Below are positions 37,634-54,881 of a DNA stretch of 64,000 nt, one piece after another. The first letter of the stretch is position 1; each line of letters opens with the position of its first letter. Under the pieces are notes generated by a model. That model saw only the letters and a program-made list of their open reading frames with translations, searched no databases and had not been told where the DNA came from. Origin of the DNA: Rhodanobacter sp. LX-99 (lineage in GTDB: Bacteria; Pseudomonadota; Gammaproteobacteria; Xanthomonadales; Rhodanobacteraceae); assembly GCF_018599185.1 (NCBI RefSeq), contig NZ_JAHFVL010000001.1, positions 992,001-1,056,000 on the forward strand. Direction: 5' to 3'. A program made the translations under genes and the position numbers.

Positions 37634-37960
37634 TCAATGGCACCTGGCGTCCATCGGGGTCATCGCGCAGTCGAGCGGCGGCCGTCCACCCACCCAGGCG
37701 CGCTCGGTGCCCAGCACCGCGGCACGGTCCATCGGACGCGGCGGCGGCTTGTTCAGCACACCGCCATCGCTGCCGTCGCTGAACCTGAACGGGCTTTTCG
37801 TCGATGCCGCCAGCACCGTCGGCGAACCGAGCCGATACCGGGCCGGGCTGGTGGCCGTGGGCTGCAGCGTCCAGCCTTCGCGGGAACCCGATGGCACCTG
37901 CCCCATGGCCGCGCCGGCCGTCAGCCAGGCGGCAACAAGCATGATCCGGCGATATCGCAT
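37634..37960 (-). CDS. Small secreted protein of unknown function
   Basis: 108 residues. A signal peptide (RIMLVAAWLTAGAAMGQ) is followed by a short, Pro/Ser/Arg-rich mature part with VLNKPPPRPMDRAAV and two Cys near the end (PPLDCAMTPMDARCH), which could form a disulfide. No domain is recognised. GGGGAGGC precedes the ATG at 37960. It lies between the NtrC-type regulator and the NtrY-like kinase and is transcribed with them or from its own promoter. A role as a small sensor or secretion cofactor of the ABC system is only a guess. Confidence 0.65.
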   Translation of the reverse strand: MRYRRIMLVAAWLTAGAAMGQVPSGSREGWTLQPTATSPARYRLGSPTVLAASTKSPFRFSDGSDGGVLNKPPPRPMDRAAVLGTERAWVGGRPPLDCAMTPMDARCH

Positions 37961-38038
37961 GACGCCTCCCCTGCTGGATACATGCAGCCATCTTTCTACG
38001 CCTTCCCGTCGAGGACAAGCATCGCCGTCACAGATCGC

Positions 38039-39467: not shown

Positions 39468-40673
39468 TCATACCGACCGCGTCGCCACCACCGGTGGCAC
39501 CGCCGCTGCGCGCAGCGCGGGGCCAAGTACGGCCAGCTGACCCAACGCCCACAGCAGCAGCGCGCCGACCGGCAGGTAGTACAGCGGCAGGCGCGGCAAT
39601 TCGTAATTCGTCATCAGCGCGAGATTCAGCGCGAATGCCAGCAGCATGCCAAGTACGATGCCGCCGCTGACGATCAGGAAGTTCTCGGTCTGGAAGTAAT
39701 GCAGGATGTCGCCGCGGGTAGCGCCCAACGCGCGGCGGATGCCGATCTGCCGGCGCCGCTGCTGCACCCAGAAGCTGGCCAAGCCGACGATGCCCAGCGC
39801 GGTGACCAGCAGCAGGGCGGCGATCACGCCGACCAGCAGGCCAGCCATGGCACGGTCACCAGCGAAAAAAGCGTGCCGCAACGCCAGCATGGTGCCGCTG
39901 AAATCCTTCTCGACGACCACGGTCGGTGCAACACGCGCCATCAGCGCGCGCGCATCGCGCAATACCCGATCGGTCTGCTCCGGCGTCGTGCGCAATACGT
40001 AGACTCCGGCCAGATGCTTACCGGGATTGCCGGCCACCAGCAGGGTGTTGTGCTGGCTGTCCGGGCTCGGGTCCGGCCTCACCAGCGAAGCGTAGGTACC
40101 GATCACGCGATAACTGTTTTCGCCCGTGTACACCATCTTGCCCAGCGGGTCCTGGCCTGGCCACAGTTTCTCCGCATAGGCGGCATCAAGCATGACCGAC
40201 GGCGATTCGGGCAGGAATTCGCCCATCGGCCCGTATTCGTCCGGATTGAACCAGCGCCCTTGCGCCAGCCTGAGACCCAGCGTGGCGGCAAATTCCGGGC
40301 CGCCGACATAAAAGTGTCCCTGCTGGGTGTAGTGCGGGTCGTCGGCGACCACGCGGAAGCCCATCTCGCCGGCGCGCTGCGTGAACGGCACGGCATTGCC
40401 GACGGCGACCGACTCCACGCCGGCGATACCCGCGAAACCGGCACGCAGGCGCGCGGCCAGATCCGTGGCATTGGTATCGTCGATGCCGTCCAGCCACAGC
40501 ACGACCAGGCGATTCTGGTCGACACCGCTGTCGACGCGCATCATGTCGACACGGTTGGAGATGAGGAACAGTGCATTGCACAGGATCGCGCAGGCCAGCG
40601 CGATCTCCATGCCGATCAGGAACGCGGCGATGCGGTGACGGCGCAGGGCGGCGAGAATGGGCAGGATTTGCAT
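39468..40673 (-). CDS. ABC permease type B, fifth pair (B5)
   Basis: 401 residues, MacB/FtsX-type topology: membrane helix near residues 16-38 (AAFLIGMEIALACAILCNAL), a periplasmic domain to about residue 280, and three C-terminal helices. The cytoplasmic loop after helix 2 has [18 protein letters not shown], contacting the ATPase. B-type hallmarks are the TM1 CNA motif, LWPGQDPLGK and the C terminus PPVVATRSV. It is the last of ten permease genes. Unlike the other pairs it lies 69 bp, not 1-11 bp, behind its A partner, and that gap carries a CATCCATG hairpin. Confidence 0.88.
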   Translation of the reverse strand: MQILPILAALRRHRIAAFLIGMEIALACAILCNALFLISNRVDMMRVDSGVDQNRLVVLWLDGIDDTNATDLAARLRAGFAGIAGVESVAVGNAVPFTQRAGEMGFRVVADDPHYTQQGHFYVGGPEFAATLGLRLAQGRWFNPDEYGPMGEFLPESPSVMLDAAYAEKLWPGQDPLGKMVYTGENSYRVIGTYASLVRPDPSPDSQHNTLLVAGNPGKHLAGVYVLRTTPEQTDRVLRDARALMARVAPTVVVEKDFSGTMLALRHAFFAGDRAMAGLLVGVIAALLLVTALGIVGLASFWVQQRRRQIGIRRALGATRGDILHYFQTENFLIVSGGIVLGMLLAFALNLALMTNYELPRLPLYYLPVGALLLWALGQLAVLGPALRAAAVPPVVATRSV

Positions 40674-40702
40674 GATGGATATCCAGTGCTCTTGTGAGGA
40701 GT

Positions 40703-40720
40703 GCGGCCATGGATGGCCGC
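40703..40720. repeat. Solitary CA-TCCA-TG hairpin between A5 and B5
   Basis: On the transcribed strand GCGGCCA, TCCA, TGGCCGC: a 7-bp perfect stem with the same loop as the hairpins near 16 kb and 37.5 kb. It lies between the stop of A5 (40743) and the start of B5 (40673), so it could tune translation of B5. Confidence 0.5.
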
Positions 40721-40742
40721 TTTCACGCGCAGGAATGGCGCA

Positions 40743-42059
40743 TTAAAGCGTCTTGAGCTGAAGAGCCGGCGCAACCCGGCTGGCTCGCAACGCCGGAAAG
40801 GCGCCGGCAATCAGGCTGGCGACAATCGCCAGCGCGAAAGTGAGCAGGAACATCGGCACGTTCAGCGTAACGATGTCCGCATACTCCACCGGTTGCTGTC
40901 GCACCAGCCAAAGGCCGAGCACGGTCAGCAGGAAGCCGAACACACCGCCGAGCAACCCGATGATGCCGGCCTCGATCAGGCACTGTTCGAAGATGGCGGT
41001 GCGCGAGGCGCCCAGCGCGCGACGCACGCCGATCTCGCCGCTGCGGCGCAGGAACTTGGCCAGCAGCAGTCCGACCATGTTGAACAGGCACACCAGCAGG
41101 AAGCCGAACGCGAACCAGGTTTGCAACTTGACGTCGCCCGGCACGACGTTCTGGTAGGCCATCCATTCGCTCAACGAGAACATGCGGGTATTGGCCGGAT
41201 GAGTCAGGCGGCCGAGCTCGCGTTGCTGCGCGTCGTAGGCGGTGAGGTAACCCCTATAAGCCGCGGCCTTGGCCGGCGTATCCAGTTGCACCCACAACGC
41301 CACCGACTCGCATGGCGCGGTGGGCAGGTTCATCGGATCGGGCTTGGCCCAGCAGGTGTACCAGCCGAAGTTGCCGGCGTTGATGGCCAGCCCGGTCGGC
41401 AGCGGCAGGAACACGTCGTGCACCTTGCCGTAGAAATAAGAGGTATTGCCGCCGGAATTGCGCGCACCAGCCAACAGGTAGAACCGCGGCCGCGGGCGCC
41501 AGTGGTCGAGCACACCGACCACCTGCACGCTGGCTCCGTTGAGCACGATGCTGCGACCGACACTGTTGGCACCGCCGAACAGGCGCTGGTTGAGCACGTC
41601 GGAAATCACCACCTGGCGCACCCCGCGCGCCTCGTCGGCGGCAACCCAGGGGCCGCCATAGCGGAACGGCACGTTGAACATCGGGAAGAAGTCCGAAGTG
41701 GTGCCCACGACGGTGGTCATGAAGGGCGACTGCCCGCCACCCGGCTGCACCTTGATGTTGCCGTCCATGACCATGGTCTGGCGATCGGCCCTGCCCGACT
41801 GCCACAGGTCGTGCGCAGAGATGTAGTCGAGCAGGTCCGGCGGCACCTTGCGTACGTCGGCGCCGGTTTCCGGATCCAGCTGCGGGTAATAGATGTGGCC
41901 GCTCTTGCCCGGAAGCGGATCGCCGGAGAGGAGGTACATCACGGTCAGCGTGGTCATGCTGGCGCCGATGCCGACCGCAATCGCGATCACCATCAATGCG
42001 GTGAGCATCTTGTTGCGCTTCAGGCTGCGCAGGGCCAGGTCGAGGTAGTAGGTGAACAT
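40743..42059 (-). CDS. ABC permease type A, fifth pair (A5)
   Basis: 438 residues. Type A hallmarks: N terminus MFTYYLDLALRSLKRNK, first helix with GIGASMTT, LLSGDPLPGKS just after it, SDFFPMFNVPFRYGGPW and RLFGGANSVG in the periplasmic domain. Two periplasmic Cys 14 residues apart (YTCWAK and APCESV) are positionally shared by all five A proteins. The FtsX loop is [19 protein letters not shown]; the C terminus is ALQLKTL. Starts at 42059 with GGAG upstream. It groups with A3 and A4. Confidence 0.88.
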   Translation of the reverse strand: MFTYYLDLALRSLKRNKMLTALMVIAIAVGIGASMTTLTVMYLLSGDPLPGKSGHIYYPQLDPETGADVRKVPPDLLDYISAHDLWQSGRADRQTMVMDGNIKVQPGGGQSPFMTTVVGTTSDFFPMFNVPFRYGGPWVAADEARGVRQVVISDVLNQRLFGGANSVGRSIVLNGASVQVVGVLDHWRPRPRFYLLAGARNSGGNTSYFYGKVHDVFLPLPTGLAINAGNFGWYTCWAKPDPMNLPTAPCESVALWVQLDTPAKAAAYRGYLTAYDAQQRELGRLTHPANTRMFSLSEWMAYQNVVPGDVKLQTWFAFGFLLVCLFNMVGLLLAKFLRRSGEIGVRRALGASRTAIFEQCLIEAGIIGLLGGVFGFLLTVLGLWLVRQQPVEYADIVTLNVPMFLLTFALAIVASLIAGAFPALRASRVAPALQLKTL

Positions 42060-42082
42060 GCACGGCTCCATTGAATTCAAAC

Positions 42083-42112
42083 GTCCTTTCACGGCAACAC
42101 CGGTGAGAGGAC
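42083..42112. repeat. Stem-loop between pair 4 and pair 5
   Basis: GTCCTTTCAC and GTGAGAGGAC pair (8 of 10 bases) around GGCAACACCG. It abuts the B4 stop codon and ends 24 bp before the A5 start. Confidence 0.5.
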
Positions 42113-43342
42113 TTAAACCGACCGCGTCGCCACCACGGGTGGCACGGAGGCCGCTTTCTGCGCCGGCCCGAATACCGACGCCTGACCCAGCAGCCACAGC
42201 GACAGCGCACCGCCCGGCAGGTAGTACCAGGGCATGCGCGACATTTCGTAGTGCTGCATCAGATAGACGTTGATGCCGAAGGCCAGCCCCATGCCGATGG
42301 CCACGCCGGCGGTGGTCAGCAGCAGGTTCTCGGTCTGGAAGTACTGCATGATGTGGCCGCGCGTGGCGCCGACCGCGCGGCGGATGCCGATTTGCCGCCG
42401 CCGCTGGCCGACCCAGAAACTGGTCAGGCCGACGATGCCGAACGCCGTCACCGCCAGCATCACCACGCACACCAGCACCAGCATCCACGCCATGCTGCTC
42501 ATGTCGGCGAAATATTTGTTGCGGATATCGCTGTAGGTCTGGCCCTTGGTCACCGCGCCGGGGTTGAGCTTGGCCAGCGTCTGCTCGGCCTCGCGCAGGA
42601 TGCGGTCGCGGTCTTGCGGCGCGCTGCGGATCAGGTAGTAGGCCAGCACGCCCTTGGAACCGTCGGCGCTGAGCGGGTAATACGTGCTGTCGTAGGTGTA
42701 CGGCCCGGAGTGGGTGCCGATCGCCGGGCGCAGCACATCGGCCACCACGCCGATCACGGTGTAGTAGTGCGGCATCGAATACAGCGTCTTGCCCAGCGCC
42801 GACTGTCCCGGCCACAGCTTTTTGGCCAGGCTTTGGGTGATGACGACCACATGGGTTTCCGGCAGGGGCGCCGTGTCGAACTTGCTGCCGGCGTATTCGT
42901 CGCCGTTGAAGAAACGCCCCTGCAGCAGGCGCAAACCCAGCGCCTGGTCGGCGCCTTCGCCGACGAAGTACAGCGAGACGTTGTGGCTCTTCTGGTCGCT
43001 GATGGTGGCGTCGGGATCGAGGCCGAAACTCCAGCCCCAGTTGTTGTGGCTGAGCGGCAGCGTGCTGGTCACCGCCACCGCCTGCACGCCCGCGATGCCG
43101 CGCAGCGCAGCGAGGTTGCGCGGAATGTCGCTGCCGACCAGCTTGTCGTCGGTGCCGCGCAGAACCACCGTGGCGATGCCCGGTTCGTCGATCGCGTTGC
43201 CAAGGTGGATGTCGGACACGCGCTGGCTGATCATGAACACGGCGTTGCACAGCACCGCGCAGGCCAGCGCGATTTCCAGCACGATCAGGCAGGCGGGAAT
43301 GCGGTGCTTGCGCAGGCTGGCGAAGATCGGACGGATTTCCAT
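42113..43342 (-). CDS. ABC permease type B, fourth pair (B4)
   Basis: 409 residues from the ATG at 43342 (GAGG five bases upstream; a GTG two codons earlier is less well placed). First helix IPACLIVLEIALACAVLCNA, periplasmic domain with LQGRFFNGDEYAG and LWPGQSALGKTL, then the C-terminal three-helix FtsX core with RRRQIGIRRAVGATRGHI. The C terminus is PPVVATRSV. It starts seven bases after A4, so A4 and B4 should be made in matched amounts. It is closest by eye to B3 and B5. Confidence 0.88.
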   Translation of the reverse strand: MEIRPIFASLRKHRIPACLIVLEIALACAVLCNAVFMISQRVSDIHLGNAIDEPGIATVVLRGTDDKLVGSDIPRNLAALRGIAGVQAVAVTSTLPLSHNNWGWSFGLDPDATISDQKSHNVSLYFVGEGADQALGLRLLQGRFFNGDEYAGSKFDTAPLPETHVVVITQSLAKKLWPGQSALGKTLYSMPHYYTVIGVVADVLRPAIGTHSGPYTYDSTYYPLSADGSKGVLAYYLIRSAPQDRDRILREAEQTLAKLNPGAVTKGQTYSDIRNKYFADMSSMAWMLVLVCVVMLAVTAFGIVGLTSFWVGQRRRQIGIRRAVGATRGHIMQYFQTENLLLTTAGVAIGMGLAFGINVYLMQHYEMSRMPWYYLPGGALSLWLLGQASVFGPAQKAASVPPVVATRSV

Positions 43343-43349
43343 GGCCACC

Positions 43350-44654
43350 TCAGGCAGCTTTCAGTTGCGGGGCCGGCGCCAACACGCAGGCGCGCCAGGC
43401 CGGCAGGATGCCGGCGATCAGGCTGGCGCCCAGGGCGACGACGAAGGTGAAAAAGAACATGCCCAAGTCGAGATGGGCGAGGCTGGCGTATTCCGCCGGC
43501 TGGTGACGGATGCCCAGCAGGCCGAGTTCGGCGAACAGCAGACCCAGCACGCCGCCGGCCATGCCGACGATGGCCGCCTCGACCATGAACTGGGTGAATA
43601 TTTCGCGCCGGGTGGCACCCAGCGCGCGGCGCACGCCGATCTCCTGCGAGCGGCGCAGGCATTTGGCCAGCAGCAGGCCGACCGTATTGACCACGCAGAT
43701 CAGCAGGAAGCCGAACGCCAGCCCGGCCTGCAGGCGCACGTCGTCGGGCACCACCTGCTGGTCGCGCAGCCATCCCATCAGATCGAGCAGTGCCGTCTCC
43801 GGCCGCTCGAAGCGGCCCTGCGCGATCTGCTGCTGCGCGTAGCCGGACAGGAAGGATCTGTAGTCCGCCACGGCGGTGTCATCAGCCAGTTCCACCCAGA
43901 CACCGAGCCACATGCACGGCGCCGTTTCCAGATGCTTGATGTCGGTGACGGCCGCGTAGCATTCGGTGTCCTGCGGGCCCATGTCGATGGCTCGGGCCGT
44001 CCTCAGCGGCAGGAACGCGGCATCGCCATCGCCGTAACTGCGGCCACCCAGGTCCTGCGCGTAGAAGCGCGGCTGCGGCGCCCACGGTTTCAGCACGCCC
44101 ACGATGCGGAAGTCGCGATCGTTCAGGCGGATGGTCTTGCCCACGCTGTCGGCACCGCCGAACAGCTTGTCGTTGAGAAAGCTGGCGATCACCACCAGCT
44201 GCGCACCGCTGTCGTCGTCCGCGGCGGTCCAGCCACCGCCGTACTGGAACGGCGCATCGAACATTGCAAAGAAATCCGCCGTGGTCATCACCGCGTCGCT
44301 GAAGAACGGGTGCTTGCCGCCCTGCTGCGGCAGGATCTTCGCCTGGCTCAGCGCCATCGCCGCCTGGCGCACGGCGCGGTGCGCGTGCAGAAGGTTCATC
44401 GCATCGACGTAGGTCATCGTCGGTGCCGGCTTGGTCTGTCCGACGATATAGCCGTCCTTCGCATTCGGATCGAGTTGCGGGTAGAACAGATGCGCGCTCT
44501 TCTGCGGCAACGGATCGCCGGACAGCAGCCGCAGCACGGTCAGCGTGGTGATCGTGGCGCCGATGCCCAGCGCCAGCGCCAGCACCATCAGCGTGGTAAG
44601 TACCTTGTTGCGCCTGAGACTGCGCAGGGCCAGGTCGAGGTAATAGGCAAACAT
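43350..44654 (-). CDS. ABC permease type A, fourth pair (A4)
   Basis: 434 residues. N terminus MFAYYLDLALRSLRRNK, RLLSGDPLPQKS after the first helix, TADFFAMFDAPFQYGGGW and [12 protein letters not shown] in the periplasmic part. The periplasmic Cys pair is ECYAAV and APCMWLGVWVEL, 15 residues apart. The FtsX loop is [19 protein letters not shown]; the C terminus is PQLKAA. The leader before the ATG (TTGARTTCAAA motif and GGAG) is nearly the same as that of A5, a trace of duplication. Confidence 0.88.
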   Translation of the reverse strand: MFAYYLDLALRSLRRNKVLTTLMVLALALGIGATITTLTVLRLLSGDPLPQKSAHLFYPQLDPNAKDGYIVGQTKPAPTMTYVDAMNLLHAHRAVRQAAMALSQAKILPQQGGKHPFFSDAVMTTADFFAMFDAPFQYGGGWTAADDDSGAQLVVIASFLNDKLFGGADSVGKTIRLNDRDFRIVGVLKPWAPQPRFYAQDLGGRSYGDGDAAFLPLRTARAIDMGPQDTECYAAVTDIKHLETAPCMWLGVWVELADDTAVADYRSFLSGYAQQQIAQGRFERPETALLDLMGWLRDQQVVPDDVRLQAGLAFGFLLICVVNTVGLLLAKCLRRSQEIGVRRALGATRREIFTQFMVEAAIVGMAGGVLGLLFAELGLLGIRHQPAEYASLAHLDLGMFFFTFVVALGASLIAGILPAWRACVLAPAPQLKAA

Positions 44655-44678
44655 GACAGCGCTCCGTTGAGTTCAAAT

Positions 44679-44706
44679 CCCTCCCCGTGACCCGTCTCGG
44701 GGAGGG
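44679..44706. repeat. Stem-loop between pair 3 and pair 4
   Basis: CCCTCCCCG, ten-base loop, CGGGGAGGG: a 9-bp perfect stem between the B3 stop (44718) and the A4 start (44654). No T-tract follows on the minus strand. Confidence 0.6.
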
Positions 44707-44717
44707 GCTTCCAGCAA

Positions 44718-45941
44718 TCACACCGACCGCGTCGCCACCACCGGTGGCACCGCCGCGGCGCGCAGCGCCGGACCGAGCACCGCCGCCTGCCCGATCAGCC
44801 ACAGCACGATCGCGCCGACCGGGAAATAGACGGCCGGCAGTCTCGGCAGTTCGTAGTGCAGCATCAGGAACAGGTTGATGCCGTAGGCCAGAACCATGCC
44901 CAGAGCGATGCCGATCGTGGCGAGCAGGAAGTTCTCGGTCTGGAAATAGTTGAGGATGTTGCGGCGGGTCGCGCCCAGCGCACGCCGCACGCCGATGGTG
45001 CGACGGCGCTGCGCCACCCAGAAGCTGGCCAGGCCGACGATGCCCAGCGCGGTCACGGCGAGCAGCGCGACGATGACGCCGACCAGGATGCCGGCCATCG
45101 CGCGGTCGTTCCGGAAGAAATCGCTGCGGATGTCGTCGAGCGTCTCCTTCTTGAGGATGATGCGATGCGGATCGGCCTTGCGCAGCACCTTGGCCGCGCC
45201 TTCCAGCACGCGATCGCGCTGTTCCGGTGCCGTGCGCAGCACATAGCGCGAGGCGCTGGCGGTGCTCATCCGCAGCGGGAAGACCATCGTCCACTGCGCC
45301 GCGTCATCGCCCATGAAAAGCGATGGCCGGATCAGCGCCTGCATCACACCGATCACGCGTACCGATGTCTCGCCGAGATAGATGTTCTTGCCCAGCGCGC
45401 TCTCGCCGGGCCACAACCGTTCCGCCATCGCCTGCGTGATGATCACCGAGCCCACCTTGTTCTGCAGGTCGGGATCGCTGCGCATGGCGTCGAAGTCCAT
45501 GTATTCGTCGGCATTGAAATCGCGCCCCGCCACCAGCCGTGCACCGTAGGTCCCGATCAGACTTTCTCCCATGTACATGGTGGCATTGAGCGTGGGCAGC
45601 TTCTGCGTCGGGTCGAGCTTGATGCTGGTGTTCGACGAGCTGTTGGTGAACGGCACCTGGTTGACCAGCGCCGCCGCGGTCACGCCGGGAACCTGCCGCA
45701 GCAGCGCCAGGTCTTCCTGCGCGCGTGCCTTGGCATTGGCCGGCTTGCCGATGTTGGCGACCTGGAGCTGCACCAGCTCGTGCTCGGCCACGCCGCTGAC
45801 CATCTTGTTGCGTTCCAGGCGCTGGCTGATCAGGAACACGGCATTGCAGACGATGGCGCAGGTCAGCGCGATCTCCAGGATCAGCAGCAGTGCGGGGATC
45901 TTGTGCCGGCGCAAAGTAGAGAGGATCGGTCCGAGTTCCAT
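44718..45941 (-). CDS. ABC permease type B, third pair (B3)
   Basis: 407 residues. N terminus MELGPILSTLRRHKIPALL, first helix with CAIVCNAVFLI, periplasmic LVAGRDFNADEYMD and LWPGESALGKNI, FtsX loop [18 protein letters not shown] and three C-terminal helices; C terminus PPVVATRSV. Only one base separates it from the A3 stop, the tightest pair in the array. By eye it belongs to the B3-B5 clade. Confidence 0.88.
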   Translation of the reverse strand: MELGPILSTLRRHKIPALLLILEIALTCAIVCNAVFLISQRLERNKMVSGVAEHELVQLQVANIGKPANAKARAQEDLALLRQVPGVTAAALVNQVPFTNSSSNTSIKLDPTQKLPTLNATMYMGESLIGTYGARLVAGRDFNADEYMDFDAMRSDPDLQNKVGSVIITQAMAERLWPGESALGKNIYLGETSVRVIGVMQALIRPSLFMGDDAAQWTMVFPLRMSTASASRYVLRTAPEQRDRVLEGAAKVLRKADPHRIILKKETLDDIRSDFFRNDRAMAGILVGVIVALLAVTALGIVGLASFWVAQRRRTIGVRRALGATRRNILNYFQTENFLLATIGIALGMVLAYGINLFLMLHYELPRLPAVYFPVGAIVLWLIGQAAVLGPALRAAAVPPVVATRSV

Positions 45942-45942
45942 G

Positions 45943-47241
45943 TCAGTTGCTCTTCAGTTGCAGCGCGGGCGGAATCAGGCAGGCCCGCCAGGCAGGCAGC
46001 AGGCCCGCCAGCAGGCTGGCCACGACGGCGGAGACGAACGTCGCCAGCAGCATCGGCAGATCCAGGTGCGCCAGCGCGGCGTAATCCGAGGGCTGCCTGC
46101 GCACCAGCCACAGGCCGAGTAGCGCCAGCAGCAGGCCGCCGATGCCACCGACCAGGCCGACCGCACCGGCTTCGACCAGGAGCTGCGCAAACAGCGAACG
46201 ACGCGAAGCACCGAGTGCACGCCGCACGCCGAGTTCGCCCGAGCGGCGCAGGAACTTGGCCAGCATCAGCCCGACCGTGTTGACCAGGCACACCAGCAGG
46301 AAGCCGAACGCCAGCCATGCCTGCAGGTGCACGTCGCTGGGCACCACCTTGTTGTAGTCCAGCCAGCCCATCAAGTCGGGCAGGCGGACATTGGCCGGCC
46401 GCTGGAAACGGCCCAGCGTTTTCTGTTCCCGCGAATAGTTCAGCAGGAACTCGCTGTACGCGGCCGCGTCGGCCGGCGTGTCCAGTTGCACCCAGAACTG
46501 CAGCCAGGTGCAGGTGGCGATTTTCATGTTGTCGCCCGAGCCCTTGCCCCAGCAATCGGTCGAGCCATTGCGGGCGAACTTCAGGTCCGTCGCCGTAGTC
46601 AGCGGCACGAATACGCCCTCGTCGGAGGAATAGCTGCCGGTGTTGAGGTCGTAGAAGTGCGGTGTCGGCCGCCAGGCGTCCAGCACGCCGACGATGCGGA
46701 ACGCCACGTCGTCCATGCGCAGCGTCTGTCCGGTGCTGTCCTTGCCGCCGAACAGCTTGTCGTTGAGTTCGCGGGTGAGCACGGCCACGCGCGCGCCGGC
46801 CTCGTCGTCGGCCGCGTTCCAGCCTTGTCCGTAAAGGAACGGCACCTCGAACATCGGGAAGAAATCGGCAGAGGTGTAGCGCGCGTCCTCGAAGAACGGA
46901 TCGATCGAGGACTGCGCCGGCTGGATCGGCACGGCGCCGCCGGTCATCAACGCCTGGTAGCGGGCGCGCTTGGCGTGCAGCAGCGCCATGCCGTCGATCC
47001 AGCTGACCTGCGCCGGCGGATCGTCCTGGGGCTTGTAGCCGTCCATGTCCTGCGGATCCAGCTGCGGATAGAACAGCTTGCCGCTCTTGTCCGGCAGCGG
47101 ATCGCCCGACAGCACGTGCAGCACGGTCAGTGTCGTCATCGACGCGCCGATGCCCAGCGCGATCGCCACGACCATGAGTGCAGTGAGCGCCTTGTTGCGC
47201 CTGAGGCTGCGCAGTGCCAGATCGAGGTAGTAGCCGAACAT
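45943..47241 (-). CDS. ABC permease type A, third pair (A3)
   Basis: 432 residues from the ATG at 47241 (MFGYYLDLALRSLRRNK); a longer in-frame start lacks conservation. HVLSGDPLPDKS follows the first helix. SADFFPMFEVPFLYGQGW and KLFGGKDSTGQT lie in the periplasmic domain. The Cys pair is DCWGKG and ATCTWLQFWVQL, 14 residues apart. FtsX loop [20 protein letters not shown] terminus ALQLKSN. By eye it is close to A4 and A5. Confidence 0.88.
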   Translation of the reverse strand: MFGYYLDLALRSLRRNKALTALMVVAIALGIGASMTTLTVLHVLSGDPLPDKSGKLFYPQLDPQDMDGYKPQDDPPAQVSWIDGMALLHAKRARYQALMTGGAVPIQPAQSSIDPFFEDARYTSADFFPMFEVPFLYGQGWNAADDEAGARVAVLTRELNDKLFGGKDSTGQTLRMDDVAFRIVGVLDAWRPTPHFYDLNTGSYSSDEGVFVPLTTATDLKFARNGSTDCWGKGSGDNMKIATCTWLQFWVQLDTPADAAAYSEFLLNYSREQKTLGRFQRPANVRLPDLMGWLDYNKVVPSDVHLQAWLAFGFLLVCLVNTVGLMLAKFLRRSGELGVRRALGASRRSLFAQLLVEAGAVGLVGGIGGLLLALLGLWLVRRQPSDYAALAHLDLPMLLATFVSAVVASLLAGLLPAWRACLIPPALQLKSN

Positions 47242-47259
47242 TCCATGCGCTCCGTCGTT

Positions 47260-47309
47260 CTTGTCCCCTCCCTCCCCTGCGACCGAAGGCAATCCCTTTT
47301 CGGGACAAG
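47260..47309. repeat. Stem-loop between pair 2 and pair 3
   Basis: CTTGTCCC (47260-47267) pairs with GGGACAAG (47302-47309); the loop is 34 bases and C-rich. It lies between the B2 stop and the A3 start, 90 bp apart. Confidence 0.45.
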
Positions 47310-47331
47310 CAAGGAAGGGCGTGAAAAAAGC

Positions 47332-48588
47332 TCAGGCCGCCCGCGTCGCCACGACCGGCGGCACGTTGGAGGCGCGCCGCGCCGGTGCGAATACCGCAGC
47401 CTGGCCGATCGCCAGCATCGCCAGCACGCCGGTCAGCACGTACGGCAGCGGGATGCGGGTCATCTCGTAGTGGCTCATCAGCCACATGTTCAGGCCCAGC
47501 GACAGCAACACCCCGATCACCACGCCGGCGCCGGCGATCAGCAGGTTCTCGATCTGGAAGTAGCGCAGGATGTCGATCTTGCGGGCGCCCAGCGCACGCC
47601 GTACGCCGATCTGCCGATGCCGCTGGCCGACCCAGAAACTGGTCAGGCCGACGATGCCGGCGGCGGTGACGCAGAGCAGGATCAGGCAGATCACGCCCAT
47701 CAGGATCGCCATGCCCACGTCGGCCCGATAGGCCCTGGCGCGGATCTCGGAGAACGGCTTGACGCTATCGTCGTCGAGCACGCGCATCGGGTTCACCTTG
47801 TACAGCGTGGGCGCCACCGCGCGCATCGCGGCGTCCAGCCGGCCGGGCTTGGCGCGCACGGCATAGCGCGCGAAGTTCGCGTCCAGCCGGGTCGGTATCA
47901 GCGTCGAGTACCACGCAAAGTCGTTGCCCCAGCTGCCAGTGGCGGGGATCTGCATGCGCGCCACCACCCCGATGATGGTGGTGGGCGCATTGCTGCCGTC
48001 GGTGTACATCACCTTGCCGACCGCGTCGCCCTTCGGGAACAGCTTGTCCGCCAGCTGCTGGGTGATGATGGCGACCGGGCGATCGCGCCGGTCGCGGAAA
48101 CCCTGATGCTGCACGTCGCCGGCATTGAAGGCGCGGCCAGCCACCAGGCGCACTCCCAATGTGGACAGCATCTGCTCGTCGGTGAAGTAGTACGCCGTAC
48201 GGGTATTGCCCTTGCCGCCCAGCTGGGCGCCCGGCTTGTGCGAAACCGAACCGGTCCAGGAGGAGTTGAGCAAGGGCAGCGAGTTGATCGGCGCCACCGA
48301 AGCCACGTCCGGCAGCTGGCGCAGGGCAGCGAGGTCCTCGCGCTGCATGGCGTCCAGTTTCTCCACGCCATCGGTGCTGTCGGCGTTGGGCGCGCCCACC
48401 CATTGCTGGCTGACCAAAAACAGGTCGCCCTCGTCCAGCCCGGTGGTGCGGTTCACGCGGTCGATGCGCTGGCCGATGATGAAGACCGCATTGCACACGA
48501 TCGCCAGCGTCAGCGCGATCTGCAACGCGATCAGTACGGTGCCCGCCTTGTGCTTGCGCAGTGCGGCAAGAATGGGATGCAGTGTCAT
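47332..48588 (-). CDS. ABC permease type B, second pair (B2)
   Basis: 418 residues from the ATG at 48588; AGGAG is seven bases upstream of it but only one base from an ATG two codons earlier. First helix [20 protein letters not shown], nearly the same as B1. Periplasmic domain with LVAGRAFNAGDV and LFPKGDAVGKVM (no WPG motif). FtsX loop [19 protein letters not shown] terminus PPVVATRAA. Eleven bases separate it from A2. It forms a clade with B1. Confidence 0.88.
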   Translation of the reverse strand: MTLHPILAALRKHKAGTVLIALQIALTLAIVCNAVFIIGQRIDRVNRTTGLDEGDLFLVSQQWVGAPNADSTDGVEKLDAMQREDLAALRQLPDVASVAPINSLPLLNSSWTGSVSHKPGAQLGGKGNTRTAYYFTDEQMLSTLGVRLVAGRAFNAGDVQHQGFRDRRDRPVAIITQQLADKLFPKGDAVGKVMYTDGSNAPTTIIGVVARMQIPATGSWGNDFAWYSTLIPTRLDANFARYAVRAKPGRLDAAMRAVAPTLYKVNPMRVLDDDSVKPFSEIRARAYRADVGMAILMGVICLILLCVTAAGIVGLTSFWVGQRHRQIGVRRALGARKIDILRYFQIENLLIAGAGVVIGVLLSLGLNMWLMSHYEMTRIPLPYVLTGVLAMLAIGQAAVFAPARRASNVPPVVATRAA

Positions 48589-48599
48589 GTTCATGCTCC

Positions 48600-49916
48600 T
48601 CAATTGCTCTTCAACTGCCATGCGGGCTGCACGCGCGAGGCACGGAAGGTCGGATACAGGCCGGCCAGCATCGTGGCGACCACGGCCACAAGCAGGGTGA
48701 GCAGCAGCAGCGACACGTCCACCCGCGCCAGCGCGGCGATGTCCCTGGGCAGCACCCAGCCCACGCTGGCCACGCCCGCCCCGGTGAGCAACAGGCCCAG
48801 TACGCCACCCGCCAGGCCGACGATGCCGGCCTCGGTGAGGAACTGTGCGTAGATCGCGGCGCGCTGCGCGCCCAGCGCGCGACGTACGCCGATCTCGCCG
48901 CTGCGGCGCAGGAACTTCGCCAGCAGCAGGCCCACCGTGTTCACCAGGCACACCAGCAGCAACCCCAGCGCCACCAGCAACGACACCTTGGTATCGCTGG
49001 GCACCACGTGCTGGTTGTCCAGCCATGCCGGCAGATCGCGCAGGCGGCTGTTCGGCGCCCAGCGGAAACGCCCGGCCTGCTGCTGTTCGCGCGAGTAGTC
49101 GTTGAGGTAATTGCGATAGGAAGTCGCCGCCGCGGCACCGTCCAGCTCGGCCATGTAGGCGATCCACACGCACTCGGAATGCTGCAGGCCGACGAAACCC
49201 GACTCCTCGGGCACCGCATTGCAGTTCGTGTTGCCGTCGTTCGGCATGGACGTCTGGATGGCCGTGAGGAACGGCAGGAACACGTCGTCGCCGGTGGTCG
49301 AGAAACCGCCGGTGTTGACCACGTCGTAGAAGCGCGGCTGCGGGTTCCAGTCATCGAGCACGCCGACCACGCGGTAATCCTTGCCCTCGATGTTGACGGT
49401 CTTGCCCACGCTGCTGGCGCCGCCGAACAGCTTCTGGTTGAGCTTGGCGCTGATCACCACCACCGTCGCACGATTGGTGTCATCGCTTTCGCTCCAGCCG
49501 CTGCCGTACTTGAACGGCACGTCCAGCATCGGGAAGAACTCGCCATATACCGCATGGCCGCTGACGTTGAGCGGGTGCTTGCCGGCCTCCGCCGGCACCA
49601 CCGACGGCGAGACCTGGTACATCGCCGACTGCCGCTTCGCGCGATGGTCGCGCATCAGCGCCATCGCGTCGGCGTAGCTCATCGCGTTCGGCGGCTCGCC
49701 GTCGTCGCTGCGGCCGTTCGGCCCCCAGTTGTCGATCTGCGGCACGAACAGCTGCGACGACTTCCACGGGATCGGGTCGCCCGATACCGCACGGAACACC
49801 GACCAGGTCGTCATCGACGCGGCCACGCCGAAGCCGATCGCCAGCACCATCAACGCGGTCAGGCCCGGACTGCGCCTGAGGCTGCGCAGCGCCAATTCGA
49901 GGTAGTAGCTGAACAT
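48600..49916 (-). CDS. ABC permease type A, second pair (A2)
   Basis: 438 residues from the ATG at 49916 (MFSYYLELALRSLRRSP); GGAG is six bases upstream of it and abuts an alternative ATG at 49922. [14 protein letters not shown] follows the first helix. YGEFFPMLDVPFKYGSGW and KLFGGASSVGKT lie in the periplasmic domain. The Cys pair is NCNAVP and SECVWIAYMAEL, 17 residues apart. FtsX loop [20 protein letters not shown] terminus WQLKSN. It is the closest relative of A1. Confidence 0.88.
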   Translation of the reverse strand: MFSYYLELALRSLRRSPGLTALMVLAIGFGVAASMTTWSVFRAVSGDPIPWKSSQLFVPQIDNWGPNGRSDDGEPPNAMSYADAMALMRDHRAKRQSAMYQVSPSVVPAEAGKHPLNVSGHAVYGEFFPMLDVPFKYGSGWSESDDTNRATVVVISAKLNQKLFGGASSVGKTVNIEGKDYRVVGVLDDWNPQPRFYDVVNTGGFSTTGDDVFLPFLTAIQTSMPNDGNTNCNAVPEESGFVGLQHSECVWIAYMAELDGAAAATSYRNYLNDYSREQQQAGRFRWAPNSRLRDLPAWLDNQHVVPSDTKVSLLVALGLLLVCLVNTVGLLLAKFLRRSGEIGVRRALGAQRAAIYAQFLTEAGIVGLAGGVLGLLLTGAGVASVGWVLPRDIAALARVDVSLLLLTLLVAVVATMLAGLYPTFRASRVQPAWQLKSN

Positions 49917-49933
49917 GCGCATCTCCAGAGTTG

Positions 49934-49955
49934 GCCTCTCCCTGGCGGGAGAGGC
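49934..49955. repeat. Stem-loop between pair 1 and pair 2
   Basis: GCCTCTCCC, TGGC, GGGAGAGGC: a 9-bp perfect stem with a four-base loop, nine bases after the B1 stop (49964) in the direction of transcription. No T-tract follows. Confidence 0.65.
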
Positions 49956-49963
49956 GGTATTCG

Positions 49964-51196
49964 TCACACCGAACGTGTCGCCTCCACCGGCGACACGCGT
50001 GAAGCGCGCAGTGCCGGTCCCAGCACCGCGCCTTGGCCAAGCAACAACAGCACGACCACGCCGCTCACCACATAGACCAGCGACAGTCGCGCCATTTCAA
50101 ACTGGGTGACCATCCACAGGTTGATGCCGATCGCCAGCACCGCCCCGACCAGTACCCCGCCGAAGCCGATCAACAGGTTCTCGGTGAGGAAGTAATGCAG
50201 GATGTCGCCGCGAGTGGCCCCCAGCGCGCGGCGCACGCCGATCTGCTTGCGCCGCTGGCCGACCCAGAAGCTGGTCAGCCCGACGATGCCGGCGGCGGTG
50301 ATCGCCAGCAGCACCACGCTGATGATGCCCATCAGGATCGCCATGCCTAGGTCGCGTTCGTAGGCACGCTGGCGCACCTGGGCAAAACTCATCACGCCAT
50401 CCTTGCGGTCGATGATGCGCATGCGGCTTTGCGCATACAGGGCCTTCGGCGCATCGCGCATGGCGGCGTCGAGCTGGCCCGGTCGCGCGCGCACGAGGTA
50501 GTACGTGTAGTCGTTCAGCAGCCGCGCCGGCACCAGCACGGCGTTGTACGCGTACGCGTTGGCCCAGCTGCTGATCATGTGCGCCTGCAAGGTGTCAGTG
50601 ATGCCGATGACGGTGGCTGGCCCCCGCCCCATCGACACATAGATGGTCTTGCCCAGCACCGAGCCATCGGGATACAGCCGCCGCGCCAGATCCTTGCTGA
50701 TGATCACCTGCGCGGCATGCATCGCGTCGCGCGGTCGCTGCGCACCGATTTCGCTGGCGGTGAAATTGCGCCCCGCGATCAGGTGCGTGCCCAGCGTGGC
50801 CAGGGTGTGGTCGTCGGAAAAGAACATCGCCGCGTCGGTGGTCATCTTGACCTGGTCGGGCTGCAGCTTGATGAAGTTGTCCCAGCCACTTCCGCGCAGC
50901 GGAAAACTGTTGGTCGGCGCGGCGTCCTGCACGCTGCCGAGCTGGCGCAGCGCGATCAGGTCCGCCTGCATCTGCGCGTCGATGCGCTGCGCGTCGGACT
51001 TGTCGGTCCAGTCGCTGCGGATCACGAACAGGTTGGCTTCATCCACGCCGCTGGGGCGCGACATCCGCGCCGTACGCTGCTGGATGATGAACAGCGCATT
51101 GCAGACGATCGCCAGGGTCAGTGCGATCTGCAGCGCGATCAGCACGGTGCCGGCCTTGTGGTGGCGCATCGCGGTGAGGATGGGTTTGATCTGCAT
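49964..51196 (-). CDS. ABC permease type B, first pair (B1)
   Basis: 410 residues. N terminus [20 protein letters not shown], first helix with CNALFII, periplasmic domain with [13 protein letters not shown] and [12 protein letters not shown], FtsX loop [18 protein letters not shown], three C-terminal helices; C terminus SPVEATRSV. It starts ten bases after A1. With B2 it forms the clade that shares [16 protein letters not shown] in the first helix. Confidence 0.88.
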
Positions 51197-51206
51197 GGTC
51201 GTTGCC

Positions 51207-52520
51207 CTAGTTCGACTTCAGCTGCCACGCCGGCTGCACCCGCGCGGCGCGCCAGGTCGGATAGAACGCGGCCAGCACGGTGGCCACGATCGCCACCAGC
51301 AAGGTCATCGCCACCAGCGAGAAATCGAGATGCGCGAGCCGGGCGATCTCCGGCTCGAACAGCAGGCCGACACCAAGCATGCCCAGCGCCGTCAGCAACA
51401 GGCCCAGCACGCCGCCGGCCAAGCCCACGGTGCCCGCCTCGACCAGGAACTGGTGGTAGATCTCGCGTCGCGGCGCGCCGAGCGCGCGGCGCACGCCGAT
51501 CTCGGCGGCGCGGCGCATGAACTTGGCCAGCAGCAGGCCGATCGTGTTGACCAGGCAGATCACGAAGAAACCCAGCGCCACCAGCAGCGAGATGCGGCTT
51601 TCCGGCGGCACCACATGCTTGTAGTCGAGCCAGTCGTTGACGTCGCGCAGGCGCACGTTCGGCGCCCAGTGGAAGCGGCCGGCACGCTGCTGCTCGGCGG
51701 CGTAGTTGGTCAGGAATTCGCGATAGTCTTTCGCGGCGGCCTGGTCGGCCAGTTCCACCCACACCGGCACCCACACGCATTCGCCATGCAGCCATGCGTC
51801 CCGGCCGGCGCCGAAATCCACGTTGCTGCCGCAATTGTTGCGTCCGGCAGTATCCATCTGCACGTCGACCGCACGACTGAACGGCAGGTACAACTGCACC
51901 GGATCGCCGAAGCCGTTGCCGCTGAACAGGTCGTAGAAGCGCGGCTGCGGATCCCAGTGCGCGGTCACGCCGACGATGCGGTAGGTATGCCGGTCCATGG
52001 TGATCCCGCGACCCACGCTGTCGGCGCCGCCGAAAAGCTGCTGGTTGAGCTCGTGGCTGATCACCGCCACCGCGGCGCGCCCTTCGTCGTCGCTCGCATG
52101 CCAGGCGCCGCCGTACTCGAACGGCACCTCGAACATGCTGAAGAAATCCGCATTGGTGGCGTAGCCATGGGCGATGAACGGCAGGCTCTGGTCGCCCTCG
52201 GGAAGCACCGACGGCGCCACGTAGTAGAGCAGCGTCTGGCGCGTGGCCTTGTGTGCCGCGACCAGCGCGGTGGCGTCGGTGTAGGTGAGCGCTTCCGGCG
52301 GTTCGCCCCCGTCGTTGTATTGCGGGCCGCGGTTGTCGACCAGCACCGTGTACAACTGCGAGGACTTGCCGGGAATCGGGTCGCCCGACACCGCGCGGAA
52401 CACCGACCAGGTGATCATCGACGCCGCCACGCCAAAACCGATCGCCATCACCATCAACGCCGTCAGCGCCGGATGGCGGCGCAGGCTGCGAAGACCGAGT
52501 TGGAAATAGTAGGCGAACAT
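51207..52520 (-). CDS. ABC permease type A, first pair (A1)
   Basis: 437 residues from the ATG at 52520 ([17 protein letters not shown]); the open frame runs further upstream only through the repeat element. [13 protein letters not shown] follows the first helix. [18 protein letters not shown] and [12 protein letters not shown] lie in the periplasmic part. The Cys pair is NCGSNV and [12 protein letters not shown], 18 residues apart. FtsX loop [20 protein letters not shown] terminus WQLKSN. It is the first permease after the ATPase gene. Confidence 0.88.
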
Positions 52521-52525: not shown

Positions 52526-52619
52526 GGATCCGGGATTTTGGGATTGGGGATCGGGGATTCGGGAAGCAGCGGATGCGCGAGCCGTGGCTCTCGCGAATCC
52601 CCAATCCCGAATCCCGGCC
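52526..52619. repeat. GGGATTCGG-type inverted repeat between ATPase and A1
   Basis: The left arm, with GGGATTGGGG and GGGGATTCGGG, pairs with CGAATCCCCAATCCCGAATC at 52593-52612. A small inner stem GCGAG/CCGTGG/CTCTCGC closes the loop. In the transcript it makes one long hairpin between the ATPase stop and the A1 start. Same family as 12776-12934 and 53361-53469. Confidence 0.75.
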
Positions 52620-52621: not shown

Positions 52622-53338
52622 TCAGCCGTGGGCTTCGTCAGCGACATGCACGGTGTGGAAACGCGGGTCCTCCGACAGGTCCACCACCTGGCCGTCGATG
52701 ATGTGCACGTTGCGTTGGGCGCGCGCGGCCAGTTCCGGGTCATGCGTGACCATCACGATGGTGGCGCCTTCGCGATGGATGTCCTCCAGCAGCTCGAGCA
52801 CGCTGCGCGCCATCTGGGTGTCCAGGTTGCCGGTCGGTTCGTCCGCCAGCAGCAGGCGCGGCGAGCCGGCCAGCGCACGGGCGATCGCCACGCGCTGCTG
52901 CTGGCCACCGGAGAGTTCGGCCGGGTAGTGCTTGGCGCGCGAGGCCAGGCCGACGCGCTCAAGCGATTCCATGATGCGCTGCTTGCGCTCGGCCGCCTTC
53001 ATGCCGCGGTAGCGCAGCGGCACCTCGATGTTGTCGAACACGTTGAGGTCGGGGATCAGGTTGAACGCCTGGAAGATGAAGCCGATCTTCTCGTTGCGGA
53101 TCTTCGAACGGGCGTTGTCGTTGAGGTTGCTCACCTCGATGCCGTCCAGGTGGTACTCGCCGCCGCTGAAGGTTTCCAGCAGGCCGGCGATGGTCAGGAA
53201 GGTGGTCTTGCCGGAACCGGACGGGCCGGTGACGGCGACGAACTCGCCCTCTTTCACGTCGATGTTGAAATCGCGCAGCGCGTAGGTCTCCACCACTTCG
53301 GTGCGGTAGACCTTGGACAGGTGGGTCATCTTCAGCAT
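52622..53338 (-). CDS. ABC exporter ATPase, MacB/LolD type
   Basis: 238 residues. Walker [10 protein letters not shown] (38-46), Q-loop in [16 protein letters not shown], signature [15 protein letters not shown], Walker [13 protein letters not shown] and the switch His in MVTHDPELA. The N terminus ([20 protein letters not shown]) is typical of MacB/LolD ATPases that power mechanotransmission, not substrate threading. It is the only ATPase gene for ten permeases. It lies between two GGGATTCGG elements, which may set its expression apart from that of the permeases. Confidence 0.95.
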
Positions 53339-53360: not shown

Positions 53361-53469
53361 CTGGGATTCGGGATTCGGGATTCGGGATTGGGGATTGGGA
53401 ATTCGGAAAAGCGGCGGCCACGCGAGCTTGTGCTCTTGCGAATCCCCAATCCCGAATCCCAAATCCCGG
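53361..53469. repeat. GGGATTCGG-type inverted repeat between adaptor and ATPase
   Basis: The left arm has three GGGATTC units followed by GGGATTGGGGATTGGG (53363-53402). The right arm (GCGAATCCCCAATCCCGAAT, then CCCAAATCCC, 53438-53467) is complementary. The inner GCGAG/CTTGTG/CTC stem resembles that of the copy at 52.6 kb. Confidence 0.75.
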
Positions 53470-54786: not shown

Positions 54787-54802
54787 TGCAATCCGCGTGC
54801 CA
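54787..54802 (-). promoter_or_regulatory. Sigma-54 promoter of the ABC exporter operon
   Basis: On the minus strand TGGCACG, CGGA, TTGCA: an exact match to the consensus TGGCACG-N4-TTGC(A/T). The -24 GG is at 54801-54800 and the -12 GC at 54789-54788, predicting a start near 54776 and a 35-base leader before the adaptor gene. The NtrC-type gene at the end of the array fits this promoter class. Confidence 0.85.
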
Positions 54803-54867: not shown

Positions 54868-54881
54868 GTGTCCGCGGACAC
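54868..54881. promoter_or_regulatory. 14-bp perfect palindrome, candidate enhancer site
   Basis: GTGTCCGCGGACAC, centred about 98 bp upstream of the predicted sigma-54 start, where enhancer-binding proteins usually sit. A further TGTCCGCATG (minus strand, 54891-54882) lies one base away and may be a second half-site. Confidence 0.65.

Follow-up and report, generated by a model that had tools for sequence, protein, structure and literature searches.

How one ATPase gene and one adaptor gene come to stand before a row of ten permease genes is the question raised by the locus described here. Descriptions of mechanical ABC exporters usually feature a single permease (MacB) or a single heterodimer (LolCE). 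In the window (the whole 64-kb stretch analysed, from the soil bacterium Rhodanobacter sp. LX-99), ten consecutive minus-strand ORFs at 39468-52520 encode permeases of the MacB/FtsX type that alternate strictly between two kinds, A and B. ORF calls, protein sizes, type assignments and profile matches all agreed with the ten-gene row reported in the initial annotation, and profile matches confirmed the adaptor and ATPase genes that it had placed ahead of the permeases, outside the span it claimed. A response regulator gene and a kinase gene, both absent from that annotation, lie downstream of the permeases. Searches for RNA families (gathering cut-offs) and tRNAs returned none within the 64-kb window. 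A role in anti-phage defence was discarded, PADLOC matches being confined to the ATPase domain and the sigma-54-activator domain in five proteins.

Table. Features of the permease array and its flanks, numbered from the first letter of the window.
Feature	Position	Strand	Evidence
Palindrome TGTCCGCGGACA, putative upstream activating site for the response regulator of the array	54869..54880	.	sequence, genus conservation
Sigma-54 -24/-12 promoter TGGCACGCGGATTGC	54788..54802	-	sequence, genus conservation
Periplasmic adaptor, HlyD/MacA type, 423 aa	53470..54741	-	Pfam HlyD_D23; NCBIfam RND_mfp above cut-off; PDB sequence matches to MacA
ABC ATPase, MacB/LolD group, 238 aa; sole motor gene of the array	52622..53338	-	profile matches; genus orthologs
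Permease A1, 437 aa	51207..52520	-	Pfam, NCBIfam; AlphaFold2 model pLDDT 77, top PDB match MacB 5gko
Permease B1, 410 aa	49964..51196	-	Pfam, NCBIfam; AlphaFold2 model pLDDT 86, top PDB match MacB 5gko
Permease A2, 440 aa	48600..49922	-	ORF and TIGR03434 half match
Permease B2, 418 aa	47332..48588	-	ORF and TIGR03434 half match
Permease A3, 432 aa	45943..47241	-	ORF and TIGR03434 half match
Permease B3, 407 aa; alternative start 45914	44718..45941	-	ORF and TIGR03434 half match
Permease A4, 434 aa	43350..44654	-	ORF and TIGR03434 half match
Permease B4, 411 aa from GTG start (409 from inner ATG)	42113..43348	-	ORF and TIGR03434 half match
Permease A5, 442 aa	40743..42071	-	Pfam, NCBIfam
Permease B5, 401 aa	39468..40673	-	Pfam, NCBIfam
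NtrC-type response regulator (receiver, sigma-54 activator, Fis-type HTH), 446 aa	38039..39379	-	profile matches
Sensor histidine kinase, short extracytoplasmic loop, 461 aa	35944..37329	-	profile matches; loop analysis

Amino acid identity among the window permeases is 43-58% for A with A and 36-51% for B with B, falling to 16-22% between A and B; thus the two are separate paralogous types, as had been proposed. The terminal motifs ascribed to them held in part. LQLK ends two of the five A proteins (QLK is found near the end of all five), and PPVVATR ends four of the five B proteins, B1 having SPVEATR. Pfam returned MacB_PCD and FtsX for each of the four permeases submitted out of ten (A1, B1, A5 and B5). 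All ten matched the ADOP profile TIGR03434, with A proteins covering the N half (about 6-401; 5/5) and B proteins the C half (about 410-802; 5/5). AlphaFold2 models, built for A1 and B1 alone among the ten and as monomers, with modest confidence for A1, consist of four long helices and a MacB core. The four membrane helices, with a periplasmic core between helix 1 and helix 2, identify type VII (MacB/FtsX-like) permeases, and the window ATPase belongs to the LolD/MacB group associated with this type.

Of 45 Rhodanobacter genomes, 41 carry the locus. Thirty-one of the 41 arrays could be read through to the regulator gene, the other ten being cut before it. The complete arrays carry from one to nine intact pairs with a mode of five, so that the window array is typical of the genus and its five pairs are not the exception that they had been taken for. 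The regulator gene follows the last permease or accessory gene in all 31, and is itself followed by the kinase gene in 27; in the remaining four the stretch ended before the kinase position. Three arrays contain lone B genes and three contain broken A genes, which shows that some pair units decay.

The A-B pairs are inherited as units. Over 196 intact adjacent pairs of the genus, A and B distances correlated with r = 0.946, against a mean r of 0.024 and a maximum of 0.097 in 1000 shuffles of partners inside genomes. In other genera of the family, A and B chose the same window class in 71 of 80 pairs, a proportion that rose to 50 of 52 where A reached 60% identity; outside the family, they did so in 13 of 18.

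Exactly one same-strand ATPase gene is found in each of the 41 arrays (including the ten cut before the regulator), and its product is 89-100% identical across these 41 of 45 genomes. Permeases within one genome have a median identity of 47% (A) and 42% (B). Conservation between classes is unevenly distributed: the regions predicted to face the ATPase are conserved (0.75 at A 321-340, 0.79 at B 301-320 and 0.85 in the B tail), as is the N-terminal helix of A (0.72), whereas the periplasmic stretches are not, identity dropping to 0.17-0.3. Further A-B pairs occur elsewhere in the same genome, at loci L009, L012 and L013, and none of the three has an ATPase match in the surrounding 4.7-6.7 kb or so. 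From the co-inheritance of partners, the conserved coupling regions and these ATPase-less pairs, we infer that diversified A-B heterodimers share one motor, which would drive outward transport of their substrates. The data are best read as a tripartite exporter in which several permease heterodimers make use of one motor and one adaptor, and we hold this to be somewhat better than an even bet. The one-motor arrangement put forward in the initial annotation is therefore retained as a favoured interpretation, motor sharing itself remaining inferential. Against this reading, a second ATPase encoded in the same genome (L010), 58% identical to that of the array, might serve the other pairs, and the coupling regions should also be conserved if the pairs worked with just any LolD-type ATPase. 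The conserved N-terminal helix of A, the want of a palindrome at the L012 pair and the decayed units in some arrays count against it as well.

The sigma-54 regulon, which had escaped the initial annotation, is the stronger evidence. The array has the -24/-12 promoter, upstream palindrome and adjacent regulator gene that mark an NtrC/sigma-54 regulated operon. Exact copies of the palindrome number three in the 3.83-Mb genome. Within the genus, it is kept in 38/38 testable loci, and the sigma-54 site lies 60-63 bp ahead of the adaptor match in 38/38, while a reversed control of palindrome plus promoter gave no match in 45 genus and 114 family genomes. Presumably, the regulator binds the palindrome. 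Outside the genus, the exact palindrome precedes the adaptor gene in 23 of 37 testable loci and is thus not universal. The Fis-type recognition helix is nearly constant whether the palindrome is exact or not, so that no link between helix and palindrome loss is drawn. When six named genomes were searched with the palindrome alone, five had one copy, located at the exporter in three (two Stenotrophomonas and Xanthomonas hortorum) and elsewhere in the Lysobacter and Massilia genomes; the reversed control gave one match each in two of the six.

The signature of palindrome and promoter also precedes ATPase-less A-B pairs, a TolC-like gene (L191), hydrolase genes and genes for small membrane peptides. 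The L009 pair has the palindrome and a sigma-54-like site with one mismatch, the L012 pair has no palindrome copy, and an A-B pair also follows the signature in two other genera (L180 and L181), where the 3.7 kb read contain no ATPase gene. Among 54 loci with a strict promoter hit, a single in-array case was found, within an A gene of array G013; all other strict hits fall before the adaptor or after the kinase. A relaxed sigma-54 match occurs once within A2 of the window. A 2025 survey found sigma-54 promoters enriched at FtsX-like (COG0577) permeases in Gammaproteobacteria, termed first evidence by its authors; the portions of it available to us make no mention of arrays or pairing, nor of the palindrome or small peptides (PMC12316311).

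Comparison with known systems revealed partial likenesses. ADOP permeases, too, typically form large paralogous sets with adjacent ATPases missing. The A and B proteins correspond to the N and C halves of ADOP in 10/10 cases, and the gene order A then B repeats the N-C order; however, they are encoded by two genes rather than as one fused protein, score 156-198 bits against a cut-off of 622, and are headed by an ATPase and an adaptor. With MacAB-TolC the array shares a MacA-like adaptor (PDB MacA, 7.6e-14; but MacA equivalog 58 against a cut-off of 342) and the four-helix permease fold with a periplasmic core. A TolC-like gene lies between the ATPase and A1 genes in 13/41 arrays but is absent from the window array (one of the 13 was put through Pfam, yielding OEP). 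MacB, however, fuses ATPase and permease, whereas here the ATPase gene is separate, the permeases are of two types and the pairs number one to nine. LolCDE likewise has a separate LolD-like ATPase and two different permeases, with LolC and LolE among the PDB matches, but the array has an adaptor, several pairs and, in some relatives, a TolC-type channel; Lol equivalog scores were below cut-offs (LolD, 219 against 307.75; A1 with lolCE, 30 against 362). The darobactin exporter DarBCD supplies the top NCBIfam match of the ATPase (DarD, 258.7 against a cut-off of 375) and one of the adaptor matches (DarC, 87 against 450). On these sub-cut-off scores we rejected membership in DarBCD, LolCDE, MacAB or ADOP. 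SmaCDEF of Stenotrophomonas maltophilia (Smlt1651-4), an ABC efflux pump of the same order, is encoded by four genes according to the material available (PMC11356428, PMC12189255). The published smaCDEF primers had 5-6 mismatches in nine homologous Stenotrophomonas loci (K279a not among them), like control primers, so these loci are probably not smaCDEF.

We propose a tripartite ABC exporter of the mechanical (type VII) kind typified by MacB and LolCDE, whose inner-membrane part would be modular. One sigma-54 promoter, activated by the NtrC-type regulator encoded after the array, would direct the joint synthesis of ATPase, adaptor and five different A-B heterodimers, each corresponding to a fused ADOP protein split in two. 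Each heterodimer would dock on the common ATPase via its conserved cytoplasmic parts and present its own periplasmic domain, to which the strokes of the ATPase would be passed, pushing its own class of compound by way of the adaptor to a TolC-type channel. The cargo would be periplasmic compounds, probably peptide-like or amphipathic, and the kinase, almost devoid of a sensor loop, would probably sense envelope stress through a membrane partner. That the pairs handle several peptides or envelope stresses, as first suggested, is plausible in light of the co-regulated hydrolases (whose genes are also inserted in arrays) and the short-loop kinase, but the substrate class is guesswork from neighbour genes. 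In the Pseudomonas literature, as available to us, the phylogeny of MacB-like PleB tracks lipopeptide chemistry (PMC8788793), a precedent for the idea that each class of permease has its class of substrate. A broader version, which we advance tentatively, is a cartridge exporter in which one ATPase-adaptor motor serves up to nine array pairs and further genomic pairs, largely under one sigma-54 switch; small MKFE membrane peptides would be dedicated parts (cargo, selector or kinase feedback) and the fused ADOP of other phyla single-chain cartridges.

These peptides, of about 50-70 residues, form an unnamed family under the palindrome and sigma-54 signature. They suggest another possibility, namely that the exporter secretes them as signals or antibacterials, each pair being matched to a different peptide. 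At 18 of 20 non-array signature sites of the genus (fetched by pattern) the signature drives a peptide gene, and 30 similarity-fetched loci and L013 bring the total to 49 genes, 42-50 bp from the promoter, with dN/dS of 0.31 and 0.47. The N-terminal membrane segment is conserved and the C-terminal part variable. Twenty of the 26 Rhodanobacteraceae genera sampled have these peptides, as do 12 of 101 genomes of the order, all 12 of them Rhodanobacteraceae. Peptides were found in 14 of 16 genera with at least three pairs and in one of eight with one or two (Fisher p = 0.0007, with each genus represented by one locus and no correction for relatedness), an association that weakened to p = 0.007 at a looser threshold and has exceptions (g24, four pairs without a peptide; g18, peptides with one pair in the array). 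Moreover, peptide matches number 1-4 per genome of the genus against 1-9 pairs, single-pair exporters outside the family lack peptides, and a role as small regulators of kinase or exporter, like that of MgrB and AcrZ, would suit the peptides just as well. We regard peptide export as unlikely.

About as improbable, in our judgement, is that the pairs act mainly as sensors, like BceB or FtsX, binding different envelope-active ligands and signalling to the kinase, which would switch on the shared hydrolases and peptides, with export secondary. The extracytoplasmic loop of the window kinase has about 25 residues, and BceS-type kinases have a short loop; the regulator and kinase accompany 31/31 and 27/31 complete arrays, and BceB is among the PDB matches. 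However, some kinases of the genus have longer loops, the adaptor and TolC-type channel indicate transport, and the A1 and B1 models resemble MacB rather than the larger BceB form.

A third proposal would have the system export a plant-immune modulator, the array being the 17-gene operon that holds dssA of Rhodanobacter R179. From the portions of the report available, dssA is an ABC transporter permease gene; mutants deleted for it are impaired in suppressing the inhibition of root growth by flg22, and its orthologues are largely conserved in Xanthomonadales (PMC11928319); the corresponding portions of PMC10719396 do not mention dssA. Seventeen genes is the sum of adaptor, ATPase, six pairs, hydrolase, regulator and kinase in array G042, and G002 reaches it too if an adaptor off its contig is counted. 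Yet other 17-gene operons are possible, the LX-99 genome has other permease loci, and the agreement in gene number is for now to be taken as coincidence, leaving us doubtful of this identity.

Finally, redundant gene dosage, by recent tandem amplification of one pair or by misassembly, has the tandem order and the variable pair number among relatives in its favour but is refuted, and hence most improbable, since the nearest relative lies in another genome for 196/196 A and 195/196 B proteins (own genome, 0/196 and 1/196), identity of the window pairs to counterparts in other genera (A, 0.65-0.91) exceeds that among themselves (at most 0.58), and the layout recurs across the genus; the classes are old and diversified.

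Among open-licence PMC papers, we found no description of tandem permease arrays, of a Rhodanobacter MacB or of small sigma-54 peptides; ADOP under its long name appears in one of them. Group II ECF transporters, which are vitamin importers, combine one energy module with several exchangeable membrane subunits. The arrangement proposed here would resemble them in this respect, differing in direction and in having unrelated membrane subunits. Behind an almost unchanging motor, the pairs are passed on like cassettes, one to nine per array, and the same signature precedes more of them at other loci. Should the motor prove to be shared, the system would be the exporter counterpart of the modular ECF importers and would suggest why ADOP permeases occur without ATPases of their own. 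The regulon, in turn, points to an undescribed peptide family and provides a testable handle on a type of operon that may include the plant-immune suppression gene dssA.

The ten permease genes of the window alternate strictly between types A and B behind one adaptor and one ATPase gene, as the initial annotation had it. The two types are also truly separate: identity is 16-22% between A and B, as against 43-58% among the A and 36-51% among the B proteins. Spacing is 1-11 bp inside pairs (69 bp in pair 5) and 41-90 bp between successive pairs. The 709 bp separating regulator and kinase (window 37330-38038) hold no confident gene call; in relatives, gaps between HMM matches at this interval measure about 50-700 bp. 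A TonB-dependent receptor gene lies directly upstream on the same strand (window 54995-57367), and one adjoins the array in several genus relatives too. Short intergenic repeats of the GGGATTCGGGATTGGGGATTCG type flank the ATPase gene on both sides (52608-52615 and 53363-53460) and recur between two genes near 12.8 kb (12779-12925); in two of these three cases they are inverted within a gap.

Features of the array (window coordinates, in transcription order) and peptide genes elsewhere in the 3.83 Mb, six-contig genome (C, contig; L, fetched locus)
Feature	Position	Strand	Remark
Palindrome TGTCCGCGGACA	54869-54880		first element
Sigma-54 promoter	54788-54802	minus	after palindrome, before adaptor
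Adaptor	53470-54741	minus	first gene
ATPase	52622-53338	minus	second gene, after adaptor
Five A-B permease pairs	52520 down to 39468	minus	3' of ATPase
NtrC-type response regulator, then histidine kinase		minus	after last permease pair
Type 1 peptide gene	C1:1555282 (L122; L120:1636-1845)	plus	ahead of trmL, under signature
Type 2 peptide gene	C4:71698 (L013:3698)	plus	under signature
Weaker peptide relatives	C1:1481412, C2:345167

An ATPase ortholog (89-100% identity) was found in 41 of 45 genus genomes; two of the others match via a paralog only and two have no match. All 41 loci were fetched, 31 running through to the regulator and 10 ending before it. The 31 complete arrays hold one (1 genome), two (1), three (2), four (2), five (9), six (8), seven (4), eight (2) or nine (2) intact pairs. 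Thus, the five pairs first thought unusual are typical of the genus. Alternation is strict, the exceptions being lone B genes (G013, G016 and G024), fragmented A genes (G001, G015 and G020) and fragments at contig ends; the lone B and broken A genes point to the decay of some pairs, chiefly at the A gene. Counting over Rhodanobacteraceae, as had been proposed, placed the ATPase in 111/117 genomes and 25/26 genera, with one to at least six complete pairs in 24 further genera (one locus each). Outside the family, the usual unit in the order is adaptor-ATPase-A-B with regulator and kinase: 13 of 15 loci carry a single pair (one with an additional partial B, three without a regulator match) and the other two carry two and four. 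Among the best 80 of 528 loci, a single pair is carried by such named genomes as Stenotrophomonas, Xanthomonas, Lysobacter, Luteimonas, Massilia and Duganella, and at least three pairs are carried by Xanthomonas bonasiae and strain NCPPB 1128. One diverged copy (L115, G056:C1:527000-546900) has the order A-B-ATPase and no adaptor match.

The identity matrices of A and B, computed over 196 intact pairs, correlate at 0.946, versus a mean of 0.024 and a maximum of 0.097 in 1000 shuffles of partners within genomes. The nearest relative lies in a different genome for 196/196 A and 195/196 B proteins, with a median identity of 92% (A) and 90% (B); within one genome the medians are 47% and 42%. Likewise, the window pairs reach 0.65-0.91 (A) and 0.61-0.88 (B) against other genera, compared with at most 0.58 and 0.52 against their own array neighbours. 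A and B picked the same window class in 71/80 pairs from other genera of the family and in 13/18 from other families. On these comparisons the permease pairs are old units, and the co-variation looks like that of obligate partners forming a putative heterodimer.

On the 803-position model of the fused duplicated permease ADOP (TIGR03434), the five A proteins all align to positions 6-401 and the five B proteins all to positions 410-802, at scores far under its cut-off. Together, the A and B genes of a pair thus correspond to one fused permease: ADOP joins in a single protein the halves that are split here. ADOP genes typically form large families without ATPase neighbours. In structure, MacB and LolCDE come nearest (TM-scores against MacB 5gko, by query length, 0.59 for A1 and 0.70 for B1). 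When pairs of one genome are compared, identity is lowest in periplasmic stretches (0.17-0.3); it is high at A 321-340 (0.75), at B 301-340 (0.79 and 0.74), in the B tail (0.85) and at the A start (0.72). Judging by the models and the known architecture of MacB, A 321-340, B 301-340 and the B tail would face the cytoplasm.

The initial annotation proposed one ATPase and adaptor serving diversified pairs. All 41 arrays contain a single same-strand ATPase, and A and B partners are co-inherited; we consider the shared motor the best explanation, and a fairly probable one. Three further A-B pairs of this genome (L009, L012, L013) lie apart from the array, and the roughly 4.7-6.7 kb flanking them on both sides contain no ATPase match. 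One point against is a second, diverged array (L010, C1:1161000-1177000) with about four permeases, regulator and kinase; it has an adaptor and an ATPase of its own, the latter 58% identical to that of the window, and so could also serve these outlying pairs. The window kinase has a loop of about 25 residues between its two membrane segments; loops this short occur in kinases that sense through a membrane partner. Among 12 of the 27 genus kinases that were inspected, some have longer loops.

Some arrays contain further genes. Between ATPase and A1, 13/41 have a TolC-like gene, and 16/31 complete arrays have a DUF885 peptidase gene ahead of the regulator; for each of these two, a single representative was scanned with Pfam. 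Some arrays encode S33 hydrolases or ankyrin proteins, and one array each encodes an Rce1-like protease, an MBL-fold hydrolase and a DUF4440 protein. That peptidase-like and beta-lactamase-fold hydrolases lie next to an exporter may point to a defence against envelope-active compounds.

In 38/38 testable genus loci the palindrome begins 67-79 bp ahead of the -24 element; outside the genus it is exact in 23/37 testable loci. Its three exact copies in the genome precede the array, the L009 pair (with a one-mismatch -12 element) and the small-peptide gene ahead of trmL. A fourth site, with an outer base changed, precedes the second peptide gene in L013; the stretch read at the L012 pair has no site of this type. 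The composite of palindrome and promoter occurs in 43/45 genus genomes (38/38 good ones) and family-wide in 89/114 genomes and 23/26 genera; its reversed control gave zero matches in the 45 and 114 genomes. Among 20 non-array genus sites fetched by this pattern, 18 precede peptide genes and two hydrolase genes. In other genera, among the matches listed, 21 non-array sites in 20 regions precede 13 peptide genes, two A-B pairs, and one each of a TolC-like, an S33-type hydrolase, a beta-lactamase-fold hydrolase and a weak DUF4097/LiaG-like gene, two having no assignable gene; a peptide profile found short remnants at two of the 21 (L178, L183). At L167, L170, L177, L183 and L185, all in other genomes, signature sites coincide with or adjoin genes for hydrolases of S33 or prolyl-peptidase-like, beta-lactamase-fold or NlpC/P60 type. 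The palindrome alone is single-copy in 5/6 named genomes searched, at the exporter in two Stenotrophomonas and Xanthomonas hortorum and elsewhere in a Lysobacter and a Massilia; its reversed control matched once in two of the six. From these counts inside and outside the family, the regulon seems to have grown in the family together with the arrays. In G066 (genus g23), where no ATPase matched at 1e-90, a composite site and a stop-containing peptide match are present, possibly what is left of a regulon.

The peptides (about 47-73 residues) start with MKFE or similar and have one hydrophobic segment; the tail behind it varies and frequently contains two cysteines. That their genes are coding is supported by dN/dS, 0.31 for type 1 (218 comparisons) and 0.47 for type 2 (33), and by the start lying 42-50 bp from the promoter in 49 genes (51 loci, 30 fetched by peptide similarity). 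In L013 (3698-9320) the type 2 gene, an M3-family peptidase gene and an A-B pair stand in series with no ATPase nearby. Neither of the genome's two peptides matched Pfam or NCBIfam; a third gave a single sub-threshold Pfam match (E 0.1). With E values up to 1 allowed, a protein search returned 144 relatives; among the 120 listed, those that carry a name are hypothetical proteins, chiefly from Rhodanobacter, Dyella and Frateuria. Peptides occur in 40/45 genus genomes, in 71/114 family genomes (20/26 genera) and, order-wide, in 12/101 genomes, all 12 of this family. At E 1e-10 they were found in 14/16 genera with at least three pairs versus 1/8 with fewer (p = 0.0007; p = 0.007 at E 1e-3), taking one array per genus, ignoring relatedness and leaving out g16 (cut) and g23 (without ATPase).

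A 2025 survey reports that FtsX-like permeases of Gammaproteobacteria are enriched for sigma-54 promoters (PMC12316311). In Rhodanobacter R179, suppression of a root immune response needs dssA, an ABC permease gene of a 17-gene operon, and dssB is a TonB-dependent transporter (PMC11928319). The count of 17 genes would be compatible with the present arrays, in one of which dssA may lie. Searching open-licence papers yielded no account of these arrays, their regulon or the peptides. What is striking is the inheritance of permease pairs as cassettes, the further pairs under the array's signature, and an undescribed family of co-regulated peptides.
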